Virus record (IMG/VR): IMGVR_UViG_3300005529_001089
Location: 1-41,705 of that record
Reading direction: 5' to 3' (one strand)
DNA from: a virus
Length of the DNA stretch: 41,705 bases
Every line of letters begins with the position of its first letter. Within the stretch, counting starts at the first letter, position 1. The notes under the pieces are model-generated. The model was not told where the DNA came from. It made no database searches and worked only from the letters and a program-made list of their open reading frames with translations. This document shows, piece after piece, positions 1 through 38,645 of this stretch. A program made the position numbers and the translations under genes.

Positions 1-38
1 TCAAGGCCGTAGCGCGGGTTCGAATCCCGCTGGGGGCA
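1..38 (+). tRNA. 3' end of a tRNA gene (partial), phage attachment-site core
   Basis: The T stem GCGGG, T loop TTCGAAT and CCCGC lie at 14-30. The 7-nt acceptor strand TGGGGGC follows at 31-37 and the discriminator A is at 38; CCA is not encoded. The 5' half lies outside the window, so the amino acid cannot be assigned. The integrase gene sits right against it, which is the usual layout when a phage attP carries the tRNA 3' end and integration restores the tRNA. The core of attL is therefore probably within 1-38. The matching copy at the other phage end is not visible. Confidence 0.85.
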
Positions 39-1041
39 CTCCTGCTGAGGGCGGAAACCCGAAGGTCAGGTCACGGACGGTCTCCATCGCCTTCGCCTTG
101 TTCTTCCGGCGGAGGTACGTCTGCGTCGTCTCCGGCCGGCTGTGGCCCATGAGGATCTGCAGCGTGTGCGAATGGTCAGGATGCTGCTCGTCGAACTGCA
201 CCGCGAACGCGGCCCGCAGCGCATGCGGATGCGCTGAGACCCTGGCCCTGGCGGCGACGCGCTTCACGATCGCGTAGACGACCTTGTTCGACCGCTGGCC
301 TGGCACGCGGGTCGCCCGGCGGTTTGGGATCAGGAAGTCACGCGGGCCGAGCCACACGCCGGCGGCGTCCGCCTGACGGTACAGCTCGAGGAGGGCGTGC
401 GGGATCGGCTTCGAGATGATCTTGCCGCCCTTCTCGCGGAACCTCATCTGGCCGAGATCCAGGTCGACGTCCTCCCGCCGAACCTGCGCGGCGGCGTTGC
501 GGCGCGGCCCGAGGTAGGAGAGCGTGCCGATGCAGAGCAGCTCGTCCCATTCCTCGCGCCTGGCCGGCACCACGCAAGCCGCGATGAGGCGGCCGACGTC
601 GCCTGTGCTCGTCGAGACAACGTCGATGTCCTCCGGCCGGGGCCGCTTCGGCCGCTTCAGCTTCGGCGAGAAGTCGACCTCGACGATCTCCTCCTCCGCG
701 AGGAAGCCGACGTAGCTGCGGACGATCGTCACGTACAACGCCAGCGTCGACTTCGACACAGGCGGCAGCGGCGTCTTCTGATGCTTCCGCGGCGCCCGCT
801 GCTTCAGCTTCGTGTCGAGGAAGCCGCGGCAGTGGTCGAGCGTCAGCTGATACGGAGCGACCTGGCGGCCGTCGAGGTAGTCGGCGAGCTCGAAGCCGAC
901 CTCCATGTATTTCCGGCGCGTCGCCTCTGTGAGGCCCTTGCGGGCGAGCTCCCCGAGCCAGAGGTCGATCGCGTAGCTGTGGTTGGTCATGCCGCGCATC
1001 CTCGCGGAGTCGAGCTCCACCGGCAAAGCCACAGCGCTCAT
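1..1041 (-). CDS. int: tyrosine site-specific recombinase (phage integrase)
   Basis: This 346-aa protein has an N-terminal SAM-like core-binding domain (about 20-120) and a C-terminal catalytic domain. Visible active-site candidates are R180, K204/K207, H273-x-x-R276 (HALR), H300 in MGHSRPETT, and the nucleophile Y309. It would catalyse integration and excision at the flanking tRNA. The ATG start has a GGAGGG ribosome site 6 nt upstream and overlaps the stop of the small gene before it (ATGA). The last 12 residues (VPPAGFEPALRP) are the antisense translation of the tRNA T arm, and the stop codon lies at bases 1-3 inside the tRNA. The C-terminal tail is therefore host-site sequence and would differ in the excised circle. 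Confidence 0.95.
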   Translation of the reverse strand: MSAVALPVELDSARMRGMTNHSYAIDLWLGELARKGLTEATRRKYMEVGFELADYLDGRQVAPYQLTLDHCRGFLDTKLKQRAPRKHQKTPLPPVSKSTLALYVTIVRSYVGFLAEEEIVEVDFSPKLKRPKRPRPEDIDVVSTSTGDVGRLIAACVVPARREEWDELLCIGTLSYLGPRRNAAAQVRREDVDLDLGQMRFREKGGKIISKPIPHALLELYRQADAAGVWLGPRDFLIPNRRATRVPGQRSNKVVYAIVKRVAARARVSAHPHALRAAFAVQFDEQHPDHSHTLQILMGHSRPETTQTYLRRKNKAKAMETVRDLTFGFPPSAGVPPAGFEPALRP

Positions 1042-1432: not shown

Positions 1433-1683
1433 GCTGCGTCCCCGATGAAGCCGCTGGTGTCGGCCATGGGCGTCGTTGCCACCGCCCTAATTGAAGGTGC
1501 GATGACACCACGGCCGACACCAACCTCGTCACGCCACAGCCGCTCGAGCAGCCGCCGGCGGCGCCTGCGGGCAGCGATCGATCTGACGATGCCGCGGGCG
1601 AGCCCGAACGCGTCCGGCAGCAGGCAGAGCAAGCAGATCCCGAGCGCGGGAACCCAGAGCGGGATGTAGATCGCGGCTATCAC
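1429..1683 (-). CDS. small single-pass membrane protein
   Basis: This 84-aa frame starts at a GTG overlapping the upstream TGA (GTGA, 1680-1683). The longer open frame upstream of that GTG is antisense/overlap noise inside the repeat gene. The N-terminus holds one hydrophobic segment (about residues 2-26, IPLWVPALGICLLCLLP), followed by a very basic stretch (ARRRRRRLLERLW). This gives an N-out or tail-anchored topology with a cytoplasmic basic patch. Function is unknown. Confidence 0.65.
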   Translation of the reverse strand: MIAAIYIPLWVPALGICLLCLLPDAFGLARGIVRSIAARRRRRRLLERLWRDEVGVGRGVIAPSIRAVATTPMADTSGFIGDAA

Positions 1684-2606
1684 GCGTCCTGCCGCTTCGA
1701 CACGTCGATGAGGCGATCGACGAGCTGCAGCACCGACGCCCTCGCGCCGATGCCGAGCTCCTCGAACTTCGCGAACCACCGCTCCTTGAAGAACGGATAG
1801 AAGACCTCGTAGGCCGCGGAGCGCTGCGACCAGTAGTCGCCTCCTTCGCTCTTGACACGGGCGACCGCTTCGGTCGCCTCCTTGTACTTGTCAGCGACGT
1901 CAGCGACGTCAGCGACGTCAGCGGCGGCAGCGACGGCAGCGACGTCAGCGACGTCAGCGACGGCAGTGACGGCAGCGGCGGCAGCGACGTCAGCGGCGGC
2001 AGCGACGTCAGCGACGTCAGCGACGTCAGCGACGGCAGCGACGGCAGCGACGGCAGCGGCGTCAGCGACGGCAGCGACGTCAGCGACGGCAGCGACGTCA
2101 GCGGCGGCAGCGGCGTCAGCGACGCGCAGGCGCTTCCACGCGGCATTGCGCGCCCCGCGAATGATCGGGCGAGCGTCGGCCCACAGCGTCGCGCTGGTGA
2201 CCGCGACCAGGGCCTCGAGCTGCTCGGCCTCCGTGGTCATCCCGCACGCGCGGAACAGACCGGGCAGGTACTCGTGGACGAGCCAATCGACGGCCATCCA
2301 TTCGCGCTTCTGCTCGTCCTCCGGACCGGTGTTCGTGCCGACGAGGCGGACGATGAACGGCTTCAGCTCCTGCCGGCGCTCGTCGTCCCACCGGTCGTTC
2401 AGATTGATCAGCAGGCGCGTCAGGAACGGGGACGCGCACTCGGGCCGATCCGACCACGGCTCGCCGGCGACGTACGCGACGGCTTCCATCACACACATGT
2501 CGGGCGGCCCGTCTCCCCCACCACCGCCGTCCGTCGGCGGCTGGTGCCCTCCGGACTGAAGCTTGACGGCCTCGATCTGCTCGAGGCGGTCGCTGACGAC
2601 GCTCAT
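1680..2606 (-). CDS. phage protein with Ala/Val/Asp tripeptide-repeat region
   Basis: The N-terminal third (about 30-165) is an ordered domain with MCVMEAVAYVAGEPWSDRPE and ASPFLTRLLINLNDRW, matching a family of phage and actinobacterial proteins I recognise by sequence but whose function is unknown. Family members usually carry a low-complexity alanine-rich stretch after this domain. Here it is about 78 residues of [A/V][A/D][A/V] triplets, encoded by a 9-bp tandem repeat. The C-terminal 75 residues (SVLQLVDRLIDV) are helical again. The start overlaps the upstream gene (ATGA). Confidence 0.85.
   Translation of the reverse strand: MSVVSDRLEQIEAVKLQSGGHQPPTDGGGGGDGPPDMCVMEAVAYVAGEPWSDRPECASPFLTRLLINLNDRWDDERRQELKPFIVRLVGTNTGPEDEQKREWMAVDWLVHEYLPGLFRACGMTTEAEQLEALVAVTSATLWADARPIIRGARNAAWKRLRVADAAAAADVAAVADVAAVADAAAVAAVAAVADVADVADVAAAADVAAAAAVTAVADVADVAAVAAAADVADVADVADKYKEATEAVARVKSEGGDYWSQRSAAYEVFYPFFKERWFAKFEELGIGARASVLQLVDRLIDVSKRQDA
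1891..2124 (-). repeat. 9-bp tandem repeat array inside a coding region
   Basis: About 26 tandem units of the type GACGTCAGC, GACGGCAGC, GGCGGCAGC or GGCGTCAGC (plus strand). Each unit adds three codons in the leftward gene (A-D-V, A-A-V, A-A-A or A-D-A), so slippage keeps the frame. The GACGTC core is a palindrome. Copy number is likely to vary between relatives. Confidence 0.9.
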
Positions 2607-20227: not shown

Positions 20228-21061
20228 ATGAACGGGCCCAAAGTCGCGCGCAACCTTCGCCTCGCGGCCAAGCAGCCCAGCGTTTTCATCGGCCGCCGCG
20301 GATACGTGCTGATCCTCAGCCACATGCGCAGCTACAGCAGCCTGCTCGCGCACCTGCTCGGAAGCCACACCGAGATCGACGGGTACGCCGAGATGAACCA
20401 GCCCTACACCCGACCGACCGACCTGATGCGCTTGCGCGCCGCTGTCGCGCGCTCACTCGACACCGGCCTCGACGGTCGGCTCGTGCTCGACAAGGTGCTG
20501 CACAACCACCACCACGTCGCCGGCACGATCCTCAACCGCTCGAACGTGCACCCGATCTTCCTCGTCCGCAAGCCAGCCGAGACGATCGCAAGCGTCCTGC
20601 GGATGAACGACCAACTGCCAGAGCTCGCGATTCACCCGAGCGAGCGCAGCGTGACCGACTACTACACCACGCGGCTCGAAGCGCTCGAGCACATGGCGCG
20701 CGAACGTCGCCGGCACGCGCTCGTTATCCGCTCCGAAGACTTGGTATCGGATCCCGAGCGGACCCTTGGGAAGGTCGCGACGTATCTCGGCCTTCGTGCT
20801 CCAATCGAGACGAGCTACGCCACTTTCCCGCTCACCGGCGAGCCAGGCCGCGGCGACTACAGCGACGCCATCCGCGAGGGACGAATCCTGCCCGCAACGA
20901 CGGGTGCGATGGTCGCCCTTGATCCGAAGCTGGTGACCCGCGCCGAGCGCGCGTACGCGCGCTGCCTCGCAACGCTCGACAAGGAGTGCGCCTGGATGCC
21001 GCTCCCAGAAGACGCGATGTACTTCCCCGCGCACGAAACGCCCGTCGCAAGCGACTACTAG
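20228..21061 (+). CDS. PAPS-dependent sulfotransferase family protein (prophage cargo)
   Basis: A 277-aa protein with the sulfotransferase PAPS-binding signature. The 5'-phosphosulfate loop is at about 26-40 (YVLILSHMRSYSSLL, like the RSGSTLL loop). The 3'-phosphate site is at 111-123 (FLVRKPAETIASV, with R114 and S122). The C-terminal half (VIRSEDLVSDPERTLGKVAT, then YLGLRAPIE) matches family helices. It would move sulfate from PAPS to a sugar, lipid or protein hydroxyl. It is the only rightward gene within the late region, overlaps the end of the convergent gene by 4 bp, and is read against the late transcript. It probably modifies a host surface molecule in the lysogen. Confidence 0.85.
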   Translation: MNGPKVARNLRLAAKQPSVFIGRRGYVLILSHMRSYSSLLAHLLGSHTEIDGYAEMNQPYTRPTDLMRLRAAVARSLDTGLDGRLVLDKVLHNHHHVAGTILNRSNVHPIFLVRKPAETIASVLRMNDQLPELAIHPSERSVTDYYTTRLEALEHMARERRRHALVIRSEDLVSDPERTLGKVATYLGLRAPIETSYATFPLTGEPGRGDYSDAIREGRILPATTGAMVALDPKLVTRAERAYARCLATLDKECAWMPLPEDAMYFPAHETPVASDY

Positions 21062-29773: not shown

Positions 29774-31426
29774 TTAGCGGAAGCCGGCGGCGCGCGAGCC
29801 GCCCTTCTTCTTGCCGGACACGAGCCGGCGCGCCATCCGGGCGAGCATCACGGCCATCACGGAATCGATCTTCCGAGCCGATTCGCGGTGTTCCTTGCGA
29901 ACGGTGACGCCCCACGCGTTCGGCCAGCGGCGCGCGTTGTGGAAATGCTGCTTCACCGCGGCGTTGCCGTCGTGGTGGAACGTCTGCTCGGTGATCTCGT
30001 TCTGCAGCCGCTCGATCTCGATCGTCGTGTCCTTCTGATGCGACCGCATGTCCCACGCGATCGGATGCTTCGGCGACGCCTTGATCTTCAGCTTCTTCCC
30101 GTACTCCTCGGCCCACTTGTCGACGTAGGACTCGAACGGGTGCAGATCACTGAAGAACGCGAGCACGTTGAACCGCTCAAACGCGTTCGCGACGGCACCA
30201 TCAACGAGGTCGCGCGGCACCTCACCGTCATGCTGGGCCGGATCCCACACGCCGAGCGTGAAGACGTATCCGTCCGACACGCGGCAGCCAATCAGCGACG
30301 TGTGATCGTCGGTGAGCGACGGGTCGAGACCGAGCGTGATGTCGGCGCCATCCCTGACCGTCACCGGGTCGGCGAGCCTGTCCCACTCGTGCGGGGCAAT
30401 CCACGCGTCCTCGGCGGCGACGATCTGGTTGAGATAGAACCTGCGCGACGTCGACGGGCTGTTGCGCGGGTCGTAGATCTCCTCGACATGGCGGTCTTCG
30501 TCGAGCCACTTCGAGTCACCCTTGGCTGCGCTAAGACCCGCACGGAGGAGCAGTTCGTCGGCGAGGTCGATGTCAGGCGGCGCTTCGAGCGAGTCGTACA
30601 GAAATCCGGTAGAGCGCGAGCGCCCCTGGTCGATCGCCTGCCACGCCTCGTAGTCGTGCTCGGCGTCGCTGTCCTCGCCCGGCTCATGCGCGTTGCTGAT
30701 AGCGAGCACGCGGGAGGCACCGTCACGTGACTTAGTCGCGTTGCGGGCGATGACCTTCGCCATCTCGTGCCCGTCGTTGTTCGCAAGCCAGTGCTGCGTC
30801 TCGTTCTTCAGCACGAACGTCGCTCGCGGCCCCTCGAGCGCGCGCGGGCTGGATGTAACCGCCTCCAGACGCGAACGGCCGTGATTGGCGAAGAGGATCT
30901 CCTTGCCGAGGTCGATGCCGTACTCGCGGATCGCAGCATCGGAGAAGAGCCCCGGGAAGAGCGTCATCGTGTTGCGGGTCTGATCCTTCGCAACAGCGGC
31001 CGTCAGAACCCAAGCGGCCGGATGCGGCGCAGCGACCGGGTCGCCAGCATCGTTGAAGCCTGCGAAGCGGCAAGGACCGACGAACTCGTTCGCGCACAGC
31101 GTCGCGCCGACTGGATCCTTGCCCCACCCCTTGACCCGACGGAGCATCCCGTACCGGTAGATGAACCGGCCGTGATCATCGATCGCGTACCACCAGAGGA
31201 CGAAACGTGCTTGTTCGTCGGTGTAGCGCCAGCGCTGGCCGGCGTCGGGGCCGTCGGGCTGACGCAGGTACTCGGCCGTCCAGGCGAGCACGTCCCAGCC
31301 GAGCGTGAGCTCGGGTAGCACGTACTTCGTCTTCGAGCCCTTACGCAGCTGCCAGGTCGGCCCGATTGAGACAGGCTTGATGGACGGCTTAGCAGGCGCG
31401 GCCCGTTTGGTCGCCGCTGCGGGCAT
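29774..31426 (-). CDS. terL: terminase large subunit
   Basis: A 550-aa packaging motor. The ATPase domain has a Walker A-like loop at 97-106 (RRVKGWGKDP) and a Walker B region at 202-210 (ATFVLKNET; N-E instead of the common D-E). The RNase H-like nuclease domain has D368 (ITLGLDPSLTDDHT), an acidic site near D427 (FFSDLHPFESYVDKW) and D521 (RKIDSVMAVMLARM). It pumps and cuts DNA together with the small subunit and portal. Confidence 0.93.
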   Translation of the reverse strand: MPAAATKRAAPAKPSIKPVSIGPTWQLRKGSKTKYVLPELTLGWDVLAWTAEYLRQPDGPDAGQRWRYTDEQARFVLWWYAIDDHGRFIYRYGMLRRVKGWGKDPVGATLCANEFVGPCRFAGFNDAGDPVAAPHPAAWVLTAAVAKDQTRNTMTLFPGLFSDAAIREYGIDLGKEILFANHGRSRLEAVTSSPRALEGPRATFVLKNETQHWLANNDGHEMAKVIARNATKSRDGASRVLAISNAHEPGEDSDAEHDYEAWQAIDQGRSRSTGFLYDSLEAPPDIDLADELLLRAGLSAAKGDSKWLDEDRHVEEIYDPRNSPSTSRRFYLNQIVAAEDAWIAPHEWDRLADPVTVRDGADITLGLDPSLTDDHTSLIGCRVSDGYVFTLGVWDPAQHDGEVPRDLVDGAVANAFERFNVLAFFSDLHPFESYVDKWAEEYGKKLKIKASPKHPIAWDMRSHQKDTTIEIERLQNEITEQTFHHDGNAAVKQHFHNARRWPNAWGVTVRKEHRESARKIDSVMAVMLARMARRLVSGKKKGGSRAAGFR

Positions 31427-31432
31427 GAGGGA

Positions 31433-31855
31433 TCAGGCGTCGAGCGTCTTGCGGTAGTCCGACAGTGCGGTCACGCCGGCGAGCTCGAGTTGCTCCGGGC
31501 CTCGGTCGATCTCCATCCGCACGCGGCGGCGCGCCGCCTCTGTGGTGAGCAGGTCGCCCATCGCGTCCCAGACGGCTGAGAAGAGCACCGCGGAGAACTT
31601 CCGCTGCTGCCGAAGGTTGATCGACATGCTCTCCGCGACGTACTGCGCGGCGGCCCAGTCGGACGGCTCGAAGAAATGCGACTGACCCGACTCGGAGAGC
31701 GCCTTGTACCACGCCTTCGCGATCGGATGCCACTTCGCGCTCGGCCTTGGCACGACGACGTTTTCGACGATCGCGCGGACAGTGTCCGGCTCTGCTTCCT
31801 TGTTGCGCCGGCGACGCTCGCTCGAGTGCTTCGGCACGGGGCCTCGGACTCCCAT
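31433..31855 (-). CDS. terS: terminase small subunit
   Basis: A 140-aa protein beginning MGVRGPVPKHSSERRRRNKE, the typical start of small terminase subunits of actinophages. Helical segments follow (WYKALSESGQSHFFEPSDWA, then LRQQRKFSAVLFSAVWDAMG). ATG 31855 is preceded by GGAGGG; the longer upstream frame is noise. It recognises the packaging site and activates the large subunit. Confidence 0.85.
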   Translation of the reverse strand: MGVRGPVPKHSSERRRRNKEAEPDTVRAIVENVVVPRPSAKWHPIAKAWYKALSESGQSHFFEPSDWAAAQYVAESMSINLRQQRKFSAVLFSAVWDAMGDLLTTEAARRRVRMEIDRGPEQLELAGVTALSDYRKTLDA

Positions 31856-31886: not shown

Positions 31887-32213
31887 TTACGGCGTGGGAA
31901 GGTCGCCAGGATGTTGCTCGGGCGGCCGTTTGCGCGACGTCGGCGGCTTGTGCCTCTTCGTCGCGCGGTTGCAGCCCGCATGTTCTGGGCCGCTGTACTT
32001 GCTCCGGTCGTAGTCGTCGTGGCCGAGATCCCATGCATCTCCTGGACGGATCAGACCGCCCACGAGTTCGCCGCCGACGAGCTCGGCGTCCTTGCACTTC
32101 GCGCCGCGCGCGCACCGGACGGTGCCTGTCGCAACTCTGCGTTCTTCGCTCTCGCGCAACTCGCGATGCTGCCGTGTGTAGCCGCGGCGATGCGAGCTTG
32201 GTCGAGCGTTCAT
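31887..32213 (-). CDS. HNH endonuclease next to terminase
   Basis: A 108-aa protein: C34-x5-C40, WDLGHDDYDRSKYSGPEHAG (D62, H65, H78), C81-N82 and H88 fit an HNH fold with structural zinc. HNH proteins beside terminase genes help in cos-type packaging in many siphoviruses. The ATG lies only 4 nt after the predicted tmRNA 3' end and has no ribosome site, so processing of the tmRNA would leave an almost leaderless mRNA. Confidence 0.8.
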   Translation of the reverse strand: MNARPSSHRRGYTRQHRELRESEERRVATGTVRCARGAKCKDAELVGGELVGGLIRPGDAWDLGHDDYDRSKYSGPEHAGCNRATKRHKPPTSRKRPPEQHPGDLPTP

Positions 32214-32217
32214 CGGA

Positions 32218-32537
32218 TGGAGCCGGCGGGAGTCGAACCCGCGTCCGACCAGGTCGTGCAGGAGTGCCGTCTACCAGCTTTCTGGGGGCGTGTGCCCTCC
32301 ACCAGGGCGCCGTCTTTCCCGGCCCGAGTCAGCCCGTCTTTCCAGGCTGTCCGTCGCGTAGGTGCTGTTACGCGGCGACCAGGTCGAACTCGCGCACCCA
32401 CTCGGTGGGGAACGTGAGATCCGACGCGGAACGATCCATGTCGTTCGCACTTGCGGTTGCCCGGCTGGGCCAGCACGGTAGGCCGTGACCCGCTGGAGCA
32501 CTGCTGTCGTGCCAAGCCGTCGAAGCCAAGCGGCCCC
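32218..32537 (-). ncRNA. ssrA: phage-encoded tmRNA
   Basis: The 320-nt minus-strand RNA starts GGGGCCGCTTGGCTTCGACG, the tmRNA signature, and ends with GGACGCGGGTTCGACTCCC, then GCCGGCTCCA. The acceptor GGGGCCG/CGGCTCC pairs at all seven positions and has G3-U70, the alanine identity pair. CCA is not encoded. The tag frame runs from GCG at 32448 to the TAA at 32370-32368: 26 codons beginning A-N-D-M-D and ending F-D-L-V-A-A. A helix CAGCAGTGC/GCACTCCTG joins the two halves, and GC-rich segments on either side can form pseudoknots. It rescues stalled ribosomes and tags the peptide for proteolysis (with host SmpB). It lies 5 nt after one CDS and 4 nt before the next, without a visible promoter. 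Confidence 0.95.
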
Positions 32538-32542
32538 ATGTG

Positions 32543-33395: not shown

Positions 33396-34322
33396 TCAGG
33401 CGGCTTCGCCGTTCACGACGCGGTAGACCGTCCGAAGCGAGACGCGGAATTCGACGGCGATCTCCGCTGGCGTGGCCCCGGTGTCCGCGCGCTCGCGCAT
33501 GCGGTTGTCGCGAAGGTCCTTCGCCGCTGTGCCTGCCTCAGCTCGCATCGGCCCGAGGACGCGTTTCTCGGGCGGGGCAGCCGGCGCGCGAAGCTGGCGG
33601 TTTCTGTCGACGTCGCCGGCGCGCTCGTGCCAGACGTCGCCCCCTGGAAGTCGATCCGACAGGAAGGCGAGCGCGGCGTCGCGCTCAGCCTCGACGACCG
33701 CGGAGAGCTTGGTGAGCCAGCCGTAGATGTGGACGGCGTGGATGATCCGGTAGGCGCGATCGTCAGCTTCGCGCAGCTGCTCGAGCGCGCGGTTGAGCGG
33801 GCCGTAGTCGAACCGCTCATACATCCGCTCGCGTGCCGATTCCCAGGCGTACCCGTGCTGGTTGGCTTCTTCGAGGAGGTCTGATTCGGATCGCGGCGGC
33901 TTGGTCTGAAGTTCGAGGATTGCGATCTGCCGGTCGCGTTCACGTGCGGCTTCATGCCTGTTGATGTCGACGCCGACGACGGTGCTGACGGCGTAGGGGT
34001 CGCGGCTGCGCGGGGTGCGGATGGTGCCGGCGCCGCGGCAGGTCTCGCAGCCGAACATCACCTTGTCGTTCGCGAGGCAGTCGGGGCAGGTCTCGCGGTG
34101 GTCGCGATCGTCGTGGACGAATCCCGGTGCGGCGTCGATGCGAACGGTCTGCTGTGGGAGGTTGTCGTCGCTGGTCTCGAGGAGGCGGATGATGGCGGCA
34201 CGCCGGACCGGATCTAGCCCTTCCACCCCTGTTTCAAGACCTCTGAAACCCGTACACGTTCTCGGCTGCTGAGTCCACCGGTCTACATCGCGGTCGTCTA
34301 GTGGTGCTACCCCACCCGTCAT
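33396..34322 (-). CDS. zinc-finger plus HTH protein, replication region
   Basis: A 308-aa protein. A DnaJ-like four-cysteine finger is at C79/C82 and C92/C95 (ETCPDCLANDKVMFGCETCR). The middle is helical (DYGPLNRALEQLREADDRAY). A resolvase-like HTH at the C-terminus (TPAEIAVEFRVSLRTVYRVV) suggests DNA binding. Start overlaps the initiator gene stop (ATGA). It could be a transcriptional regulator or replication accessory factor. Confidence 0.75.
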   Translation of the reverse strand: MTGGVAPLDDRDVDRWTQQPRTCTGFRGLETGVEGLDPVRRAAIIRLLETSDDNLPQQTVRIDAAPGFVHDDRDHRETCPDCLANDKVMFGCETCRGAGTIRTPRSRDPYAVSTVVGVDINRHEAARERDRQIAILELQTKPPRSESDLLEEANQHGYAWESARERMYERFDYGPLNRALEQLREADDRAYRIIHAVHIYGWLTKLSAVVEAERDAALAFLSDRLPGGDVWHERAGDVDRNRQLRAPAAPPEKRVLGPMRAEAGTAAKDLRDNRMRERADTGATPAEIAVEFRVSLRTVYRVVNGEAA

Positions 34323-37594: not shown

Positions 37595-37725
37595 GCGGCC
37601 TCTTCGAACTCGCCGTCGTCTTCTGACCTGAACGCTGCGCATTCGCACGTCGGCGCGTGGCAGGCACCACCATCGTCATGGTGCGCCTGGAGAAGGTGTC
37701 CGCATTCGCACACGTCGGCCGTCAC
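37591..37725 (-). CDS. 44-aa cysteine/histidine-rich protein
   Basis: GTG overlaps the methyltransferase stop (GTGA at 37722-37725). The sequence TADVCECGHLLQAHHDDGG, then ACHAPTCECAAF gives C6, C8, H10, H15, C22, C27 and C29, a compact zinc site. An acidic tail follows (EDDGEFEEAA). Similar short proteins with C-x-C-G-H-x4-H are common in actinobacteria and their phages. Confidence 0.7.
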   Translation of the reverse strand: MTADVCECGHLLQAHHDDGGACHAPTCECAAFRSEDDGEFEEAA

Positions 37726-38645
37726 GCTGCCGCTTCCGTAGCGCCCGCAAGCGCAAGCGTCTGTTGGCCCTCGACGGACTCGCCGGCTGCGACGCGGCGG
37801 ATGTTCCGCTCCGCGAGCGCGTGGTAGCTCTCCTTCAGCTCGAAGCCGATCGCGCGCCGTCCTTGCTCGAGCGCGACGACGGCGGTCGAACCGATGCCCA
37901 TGAACGGGTCGAGGACGAGCTCGCCGGGGTTCGTGTAGAGGCGGACGCAGCGACGGATCACTTCGAGTTGCAGTGGGCACACGTGTTTCTCGTCGCCCTC
38001 CTCGCGGCCGTGGTTCCAGCCGTCGAGCACGTCGGTCTCGCGGATGTCGGCCCAGACGCCGTGTGCGTCGCGGATCCATTCGTCCGTCGTCACCCAGCCG
38101 CCGGGGTTCTTGTCCGTGCGCAGCGCCGGCACCGGCGGTGCCTCGCCTGGCCGCTGGAAGATCAGGACGTAGTCGTTGACGGCCGGCGCGAGTTGTCGCG
38201 CGTCACGGCCTCCTGTGACGAAGAGCAGCGAGTGGAGTTTCTGCCGCTGCGCGATCGCCTGCGGGTTCTTCGGAATGACGAACTCGCCCTTCCAGTCGAA
38301 CCCGGCCGCCTCGAAGAGCTTCCGCGTGTCGTCCTTGAACGCACGCCGGCCGATGAAGCCGTGCTCGACCTTCGTCGCCACGAGCTGCTGCACGTGGATG
38401 CACGCGTTCGTGCCCGGCCGTGTGACGCGGAACAGCTGCTCGCAGAAGAACCGAAGGTGCAGCCCGAACTGCGAGCCGACGAAATCGACGCCGGACGCGC
38501 CGCAGTTGCCGATGTCCTCCGTCTTGTGGCTGTACGTGAAGAGGTCGGCGAACGGGATGCTCGTCACCGTCAGGTCGACCGAGCCCTCCGCCAGGTGCTC
38601 GGCCATCCCTGGGATGCAGTCGACGTTGTGGACGACTGCATTCAC
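37722..38645 (-). CDS. DNA methyltransferase (N4-cytosine/N6-adenine, beta-class order)
   Basis: A 307-aa protein. Catalytic motif IV is TSIPF at 28-32 (DLTVTSIPFADLFTYSHKTE), a variant of the usual SPPY/DPPY. The SAM-binding motif I comes later at 246-254 (LVLDPFMGIGSTAVVALEQG), giving the beta-class order. No restriction enzyme is adjacent, so it is an orphan phage methyltransferase, probably protecting phage DNA from host restriction. GTG start. Confidence 0.88.
   Translation of the reverse strand: MNAVVHNVDCIPGMAEHLAEGSVDLTVTSIPFADLFTYSHKTEDIGNCGASGVDFVGSQFGLHLRFFCEQLFRVTRPGTNACIHVQQLVATKVEHGFIGRRAFKDDTRKLFEAAGFDWKGEFVIPKNPQAIAQRQKLHSLLFVTGGRDARQLAPAVNDYVLIFQRPGEAPPVPALRTDKNPGGWVTTDEWIRDAHGVWADIRETDVLDGWNHGREEGDEKHVCPLQLEVIRRCVRLYTNPGELVLDPFMGIGSTAVVALEQGRRAIGFELKESYHALAERNIRRVAAGESVEGQQTLALAGATEAAA

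Follow-up and report, generated by a model that had tools for sequence, protein, structure and literature searches.

The stretch of DNA analysed here, a linear virus record 41,705 bases long and referred to as the window, contains a complete tmRNA gene within the packaging operon of a phage. tmRNA is an RNA that frees stalled ribosomes and tags the incomplete protein. The gene is real and no artefact, and a preliminary description made from the letters of the sequence had described it correctly. Its product is probably a working, phage-owned one-piece tmRNA, which, as deduced from the sequence, would add to the ssrA RNA of the host and act through the SmpB protein and the proteases of the host.

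A search of the whole window with ARAGORN revealed a single RNA gene, the tmRNA on the minus strand, with end points identical to those given in the preliminary description (Table 1). Rfam cmscan, likewise applied to the whole window, yielded one match above the gathering score, RF00023 at 32215-32537 on the minus strand, which covers the complete model (1-374) with 50.4 bits (cut-off 47) and an E-value of 4.3e-17 that excludes a chance match. The check proposed beforehand, ARAGORN and a covariance model, thus called a tmRNA; a score below the threshold, or a sole host ssrA among non-phage genes, which had been named as speaking against the claim, did not occur. The score is low, 50 bits versus 116-173 bits for the bacterial tmRNAs tested; the related phage RNAs described below score 54.5 (L096), 53.3 (L100) and 50.2 bits (L005).

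Direct reading of the RNA reveals a 5'-terminal GGGGCCG, TTCGACGG and a 3'-terminal GGACGCGGGTTCGACTCCCGCCGGCTCCA, and confirms the anatomy proposed earlier: both ends, the acceptor stem with G3-U70 and the tag closure L-V-A-A-stop. G3-U70 is the alanine identity pair. The alanine identity elements comprise an acceptor stem of 7 bp with G3-U70 and the discriminator A; a T arm is present and an anticodon arm is absent. All seven acceptor-stem pairs are identical across four phage copies. Since TCC comes next, CCA is not encoded and must be added post-transcriptionally. By the properties that could be tested, namely the RF00023 score, alanine identity, the connecting helix and the tag frame, the window RNA is a tmRNA.

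Phage genes flank the tmRNA on both sides, as claimed in the preliminary description, and the gene lies away from the integration site; host sequence is confined to the end of a tRNA-Glu gene at the left edge of the window. The spacing is tight, with 5 nt between the stop codon of a small CDS and the tmRNA and 4 nt between the tmRNA and the ATG of the HNH endonuclease gene. Behind the tmRNA the same strand encodes, in this order, the HNH endonuclease, the small (TerS) and large (TerL) terminase subunits, the portal, the maturation protease, the capsid, the tape measure and the endolysin. A simple scan for promoters of the sigma-70-like type found none near the tmRNA, which is therefore probably cut from a polycistronic transcript. 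An ORF of 109 aa called mechanically across the tmRNA (32210-32539) was rejected as a gene. In all three homologues the small CDS closes with a degron-like tail, ADELAAA in the window, EEFLAAA in L005 (end 1290) and GELPVAA in L003 (end 496), so that its product may be short-lived. An element GGCATAGCAG-N8-GTGTACGGG with fixed spacing recurs in six related contigs, upstream of TerS/TerL; a copy with 3 mismatches is found at 34249-34275 of the window. The element is perhaps a promoter or a packaging site.

Table 1. Features of the tmRNA gene and its surroundings; positions refer to the window unless another contig is named.
Feature	Position	Strand	Evidence or remark
tRNA-Glu gene, 3' end, probable attachment site	1..38	+	adjoins integrase; 38/38 exact in four bacterial genomes
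Tyrosine integrase	1-1041	-	beside tRNA-Glu end
Terminase large subunit (TerL)	29774..31426	-	phrog_9, E 8e-70
Terminase small subunit (TerS)	31433..31855	-	Pfam Terminase_7, 139.6 bits; inferred start
HNH endonuclease CDS	31887..32213	-	phrog_1808, E 3.7e-5; likewise behind tmRNA in L005, L012
One-piece tmRNA gene, 320 nt, CCA not encoded	32218..32537	-	ARAGORN; RF00023; homologues L005, L012/L096, L100, L097
Acceptor stem, 3' strand CGGCTCC and discriminator A	32218..32225	-	sequence; four-copy alignment
T arm GCGGG-TTCGACT-CCCGC	32226..32242	-	Rfam alignment; four-copy alignment
Three hairpins after the tag, in place of pseudoknots 2-4	32283..32349	-	both partners changed in five pairs
Tag frame, resume codon GCG, 26 aa ANDMDRSASDLTFPTEWVREFDLVAA and TAA	32368..32448	-	ARAGORN; homologues
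Hairpin in place of pseudoknot 1	32467..32491	-	both partners changed in two pairs
Long connecting helix (H2), 5' strand	32492..32519	-	pairs with 32246-32278; 96-100% of cells per segment
Acceptor stem, 5' strand GGGGCCG; G3 pairs with U70	32531..32537	-	sequence; four phage copies
Small CDS, 93 aa, ends ADELAAA	32543..32824	-	directly upstream of tmRNA; homologues in L003, L005
GGCATAGCAG-N8-GTGTACGGG copies	L002 13-39, L003 151-177, L004 806-832, L005 2034-2060, L009 11-37, L012 6998-7024		

The fold was examined in an alignment of the four full phage copies, a small number, on which the tmRNA structure was also drawn by hand. The acceptor stem, the T arm, the long connecting helix and the hairpins are paired in 98.4% of the cells. 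Seven pairs are changed on both sides, as compared with 2.4 in shuffled alignments, where seven was reached once in 500, and with 0-1 when the structure was slid along the alignment. H2 consists of 21 pairs, almost all of which are formed in the four phages, and one pair varies between U-G, U-A and C-G. The places of pseudoknots 1-4 hold conserved hairpins with compensatory changes, seen in these four sequences as hairpins only.

For the tag, ARAGORN called 28 aa (ASANDM...) with a start at 32454, two codons ahead of the GCG. Very probably this start lies two codons too early and the tag comprises the 26 aa ANDMDRSASDLTFPTEWVREFDLVAA, with GCG as its first codon, as judged from the homologues in L005, L012 and L100 and from the bacterial tmRNAs L117 and L120: the window tmRNA and the two bacterial RNAs have in common the context CAAGU followed by GCG, and ARAGORN reads the latter two from GCG. 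The window frame closes D-L-V-A-A-stop. In all four full phage copies the tag is open, with a length of 23-32 aa: ANDMDRSASDLTFPTEWVREFDLVAA (window), GNDHMDRSASDLTFPKEWAREYDLVAA (L005), ANSFEHASVSTSLSREFDLAAAA (L012) and ANENDRSVTDEYVAAGLAELEAFANSNVLVAA (L100). The start A/G-N and the end LVAA or AAAA are kept while the interiors vary, which is a sign of function. Between the window and L005, 76 of 84 tag positions and 206 of 236 backbone positions are conserved; as the two are about equal, selection on the tag interior is not demonstrated.

Relatives were located by TerL searches and DNA patterns. The same RNA family was found in four other uncultivated phage contigs, L005, L012 (the contig of L096), L100 and L097. 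The L097 copy is cut by the contig end, so that the four full copies are those of the window, L005, L012 and L100. Patterns of the tag-coding and 5'-domain DNA retrieved L005 only, and 3'-domain patterns added L096, L097 and L100. The latter patterns also brought L098 and L099, which were dropped because they have no tmRNA match; a stretch of L002 (7986-8109, 17.9 bits) without tmRNA ends and a 'tRNA-SeC' of L017 that sits in an apparent transposon-type gene were rejected. ARAGORN misses the tmRNA at L096 1703-2024 (-), which is L012 6338-6659 (+), to which Rfam gives 54.5 bits; surveys of phages that rely on ARAGORN only may therefore count too few. A blastn search with the window tmRNA against 50,697 public phage records gave no match, and no tmRNA of the window's kind was found beside HNH relatives elsewhere. 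The full phage copies, on which a model of the phage family was trained, score 285-363 bits with it. Among 149 genomes of the probable host class its best score was 35.5 bits; among 151 from the phylum of L092, included as a control of origin, the best was 30.1 bits, and no closer relative emerged there. On these sequence comparisons the window tmRNA represents a divergent family, new among the already known phage tmRNAs and far from the bacterial tmRNAs sampled.

L005 and L012 share with the window the slot in which HNH follows the tmRNA. Behind the tmRNA, L097 and L100 carry a common gene other than HNH and TerS, yet 214 of 240 backbone positions are the same in L005 and L100, from which it appears that the RNA cassette is mobile between phages. 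Many of the nearest TerL relatives, several of them on short contigs, lack the tmRNA, and the gene is thus dispensable. A tRNA-Met (CAT) immediately precedes the tmRNA in L005 (1290-1361), a tRNA-Met alone occupies the tmRNA slot in L003 (500-570), and a tRNA-Met-like sequence, recognised by eye and not called by ARAGORN, lies before the tmRNA in L100 (about 2316-2384). tRNA-Met and tmRNA look like an RNA cassette common to different phages.

At the left edge of the window the last integrase codons run into the T arm and the acceptor stem of the tRNA-Glu end (1-41), which places the integrase stop codon inside the attachment site. Because the tRNA-Glu end lies beside the integrase and about 31 kb from the tmRNA, integration probably occurs at tRNA-Glu, and the idea that the tmRNA is an att remnant of a host ssrA was dropped. 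The window contains no second copy of the 38-base end. When one mismatch was permitted, a search of 396 genomes from the phylum of an actinobacterial genome recovered the 38 bases once, without any mismatch; of 119 genomes of the class of this genome, 4 contained them exactly. The host probably belongs to the soil actinobacteria, and the class assigned by the tRNA-Glu end is only a lead. When 399 genomes of this probable host class were searched with TerL, the proteins retrieved were only 38-44% identical, and no close prophage or lysogen of the window phage was found.

Each of the four genomes with the exact tRNA-Glu end has its own ssrA. The ssrA RNAs from the probable host class, L117-L120 among them, resemble the window tmRNA in being one-piece with G3-U70, in their case within the acceptor stem GGGGGCG/CGCCUCC, but they are about 360 nt long, score 129-173 bits on Rfam and encode tags of 9-10 aa ending LALAA. 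In other genomes of this class the tags have 9-11 aa and mostly end LALAA; in the tmRNA database, tags of 10 aa are the most common (PMC11915505). The tags of the phage family exceed those of the probable host two- to threefold in length, and the window tag ends VAA versus LAA in the likely host class. The comparison with a host ssrA envisaged in the preliminary description could thus be made with the probable host class, the host itself being only a lead. A search with a positive control detected no SmpB on the window or on six other virus records, so that the phage tmRNA would act through the SmpB of the host. The own ssrA of the four matched genomes and the lack of SmpB on the phage also bear on the earlier suggestion that the phage replaces or adds ribosome rescue, perhaps where host tmRNA is scarce or its tag pathway is blocked: addition fits better and replacement less well.

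Phage tmRNAs have long been listed for Bxz1 and its relatives, Wildcat, Bacillus phage G and DS6A (PMC4131195), and a survey found tmRNA in 402 of 18,146 phage genomes, about 2% (PMC9004378). The cluster C1 mycobacteriophages (ET08, Bxz1 group) also have a one-piece phage tmRNA beside the host's own, with a long tag unlike that of the host. The ET08 RNA has 435 nt and a 25-aa tag, ATDTDATVTDAEIEAFFAEEAAALV, compared with 320 nt and 26 aa in the window, and unlike the window gene it lies inside a large tRNA array of a genome of about 155 kb. In the phage collection, blastn with the ET08 tmRNA matched mycobacteriophages only, and no DNA similarity between the window tmRNA and the ET08 family was detected. 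Streptomyces phage Jay2Jay is another actinobacterial phage with a one-piece tmRNA, but this RNA has 283 nt, scores 96.5 bits, carries the host-like 11-aa tag ANSNVAFALAA and belongs to a 133-kb genome with tRNAs. Mycobacteriophage DS6A has the tRNA-like domain and little beyond it, with no tag (PMC4131195), whereas the window RNA is complete; a DS6A-like tagless inhibitor was considered for the window RNA and dropped. The tmRNA of phage Melnitz, like that of the window, has no known role, but it is two-piece, permuted and associated with a glutamine riboswitch (PMC9004378). The cluster AZ Arthrobacter phages were dropped as a small temperate precedent, as none is reported to be predicted there (PMC9476940).

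In the most plausible model, the tmRNA would be transcribed together with the leftward packaging genes, trimmed like a tRNA from the polycistronic RNA, completed with CCA and charged with alanine. With host SmpB and EF-Tu it would then enter ribosomes stalled at the ends of broken or non-stop mRNAs, which would switch to the 26-aa tag, terminate and go free. By its Ala-Ala carboxyl end the tagged peptide would be routed to a ClpXP-type protease of the host. ClpX recognises the terminal Ala-Ala and the carboxylate, both kept in the window tag, and ClpXP degrades degrons of five residues and longer in vitro, so that tag length alone is no bar to degradation (PMC7652416). The phage would probably benefit from free ribosomes and from disposal of the fragments as infection multiplies broken messages.

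In the chief alternative, tag switching or interference, the phage tmRNA would compete with that of the host for SmpB, and its main use would be a long, different tag on rescued peptides that leads to another speed of degradation, another protease or no degradation. The phage tags, 23-32 aa with LVAA or AAAA ends as compared with 9-11 aa and mostly LALAA in the probable host class, would suit such a role; a parallel is seen in the cluster C1 mycobacteriophages, with 25 aa ending AALV versus ADSNQRDYALAA in a Mycolicibacterium (L102), and a molecule similar to the tagless DS6A piece inhibits tmRNA (PMC4131195, PMC11915505). However, the Ala-Ala end is retained in all four tags, ClpXP still degrades a degron of greater length in vitro (PMC7652416), the plain tag of Jay2Jay argues against long tags as a general rule, the tag of the window and L005 is no more conserved than the backbone, and the host tags compared are those of a probable host whose assignment is only a lead. 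Tag switching or interference is rather unlikely. The broader proposal that unrelated phages evolved long tags of their own, by which rescued peptides meet another protease or another speed or are spared, is also unlikely; if true, phage tmRNA would be a tool that reprograms protein quality control, beyond an extra copy.

Two further explanations deny the RNA a present use or a phage origin. It might be a passenger, a formerly bacterial tmRNA that travels with tRNA genes and slowly decays, as would be suggested by the patchy distribution among relatives and by the tRNA-Met, which adjoins the tmRNA in L005 and occupies this slot by itself in L003. Decay is very improbable in view of complete copies in four phages, the intact acceptor stem and T arm, and the compensatory changes and open tags maintained despite the diverged tag interior. 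That the gene is a fragment of host ssrA at an integration site, or was captured by imprecise excision, is prompted by the frequent use of tmRNA genes as integration sites, mycobacteriophages included (PMC3029335). This already disfavoured explanation is scarcely credible, since the copy is whole, lies about 31 kb from the integrase, which adjoins the tRNA-Glu end, and recurs as the same RNA in the same slot of other phage contigs, while the phage-family model stays at or below 35.5 and 30.1 bits in the 149 and 151 bacterial genomes as against 285-363 bits in the phage copies on which it was trained. A working tmRNA that adds to host ssrA remains the preferred reading.

Since phage tmRNAs, including long-tagged ones such as the 25-aa tag of cluster C1 reproduced here, were already known, that of the window is not categorically new. 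It reveals a tmRNA settled beside the packaging genes of small tailed phages of about 42 kb, in the window phage together with an integrase, and extends a pattern, found in some phage tmRNAs, of a retained RNA machine with tags that are two to three times the length of those of the host and have another ending.

Other genes of the window were noted in passing. A sulfotransferase-like gene (20228-21061, plus strand; PF13469, E 1.1e-10) lies within the tail region, in the opposite orientation, and is a probable cargo gene. A Mom-like DNA modification protein (phrog_1384, E 3.5e-24) is encoded at the right contig end (41160-41705, minus strand), besides a DNA methylase at 37722-38645. The gene at 1680-2606 (minus strand) encodes a protein without a Pfam match that contains a long Ala/Val/Asp repeat (DVADVAAVADAA...).
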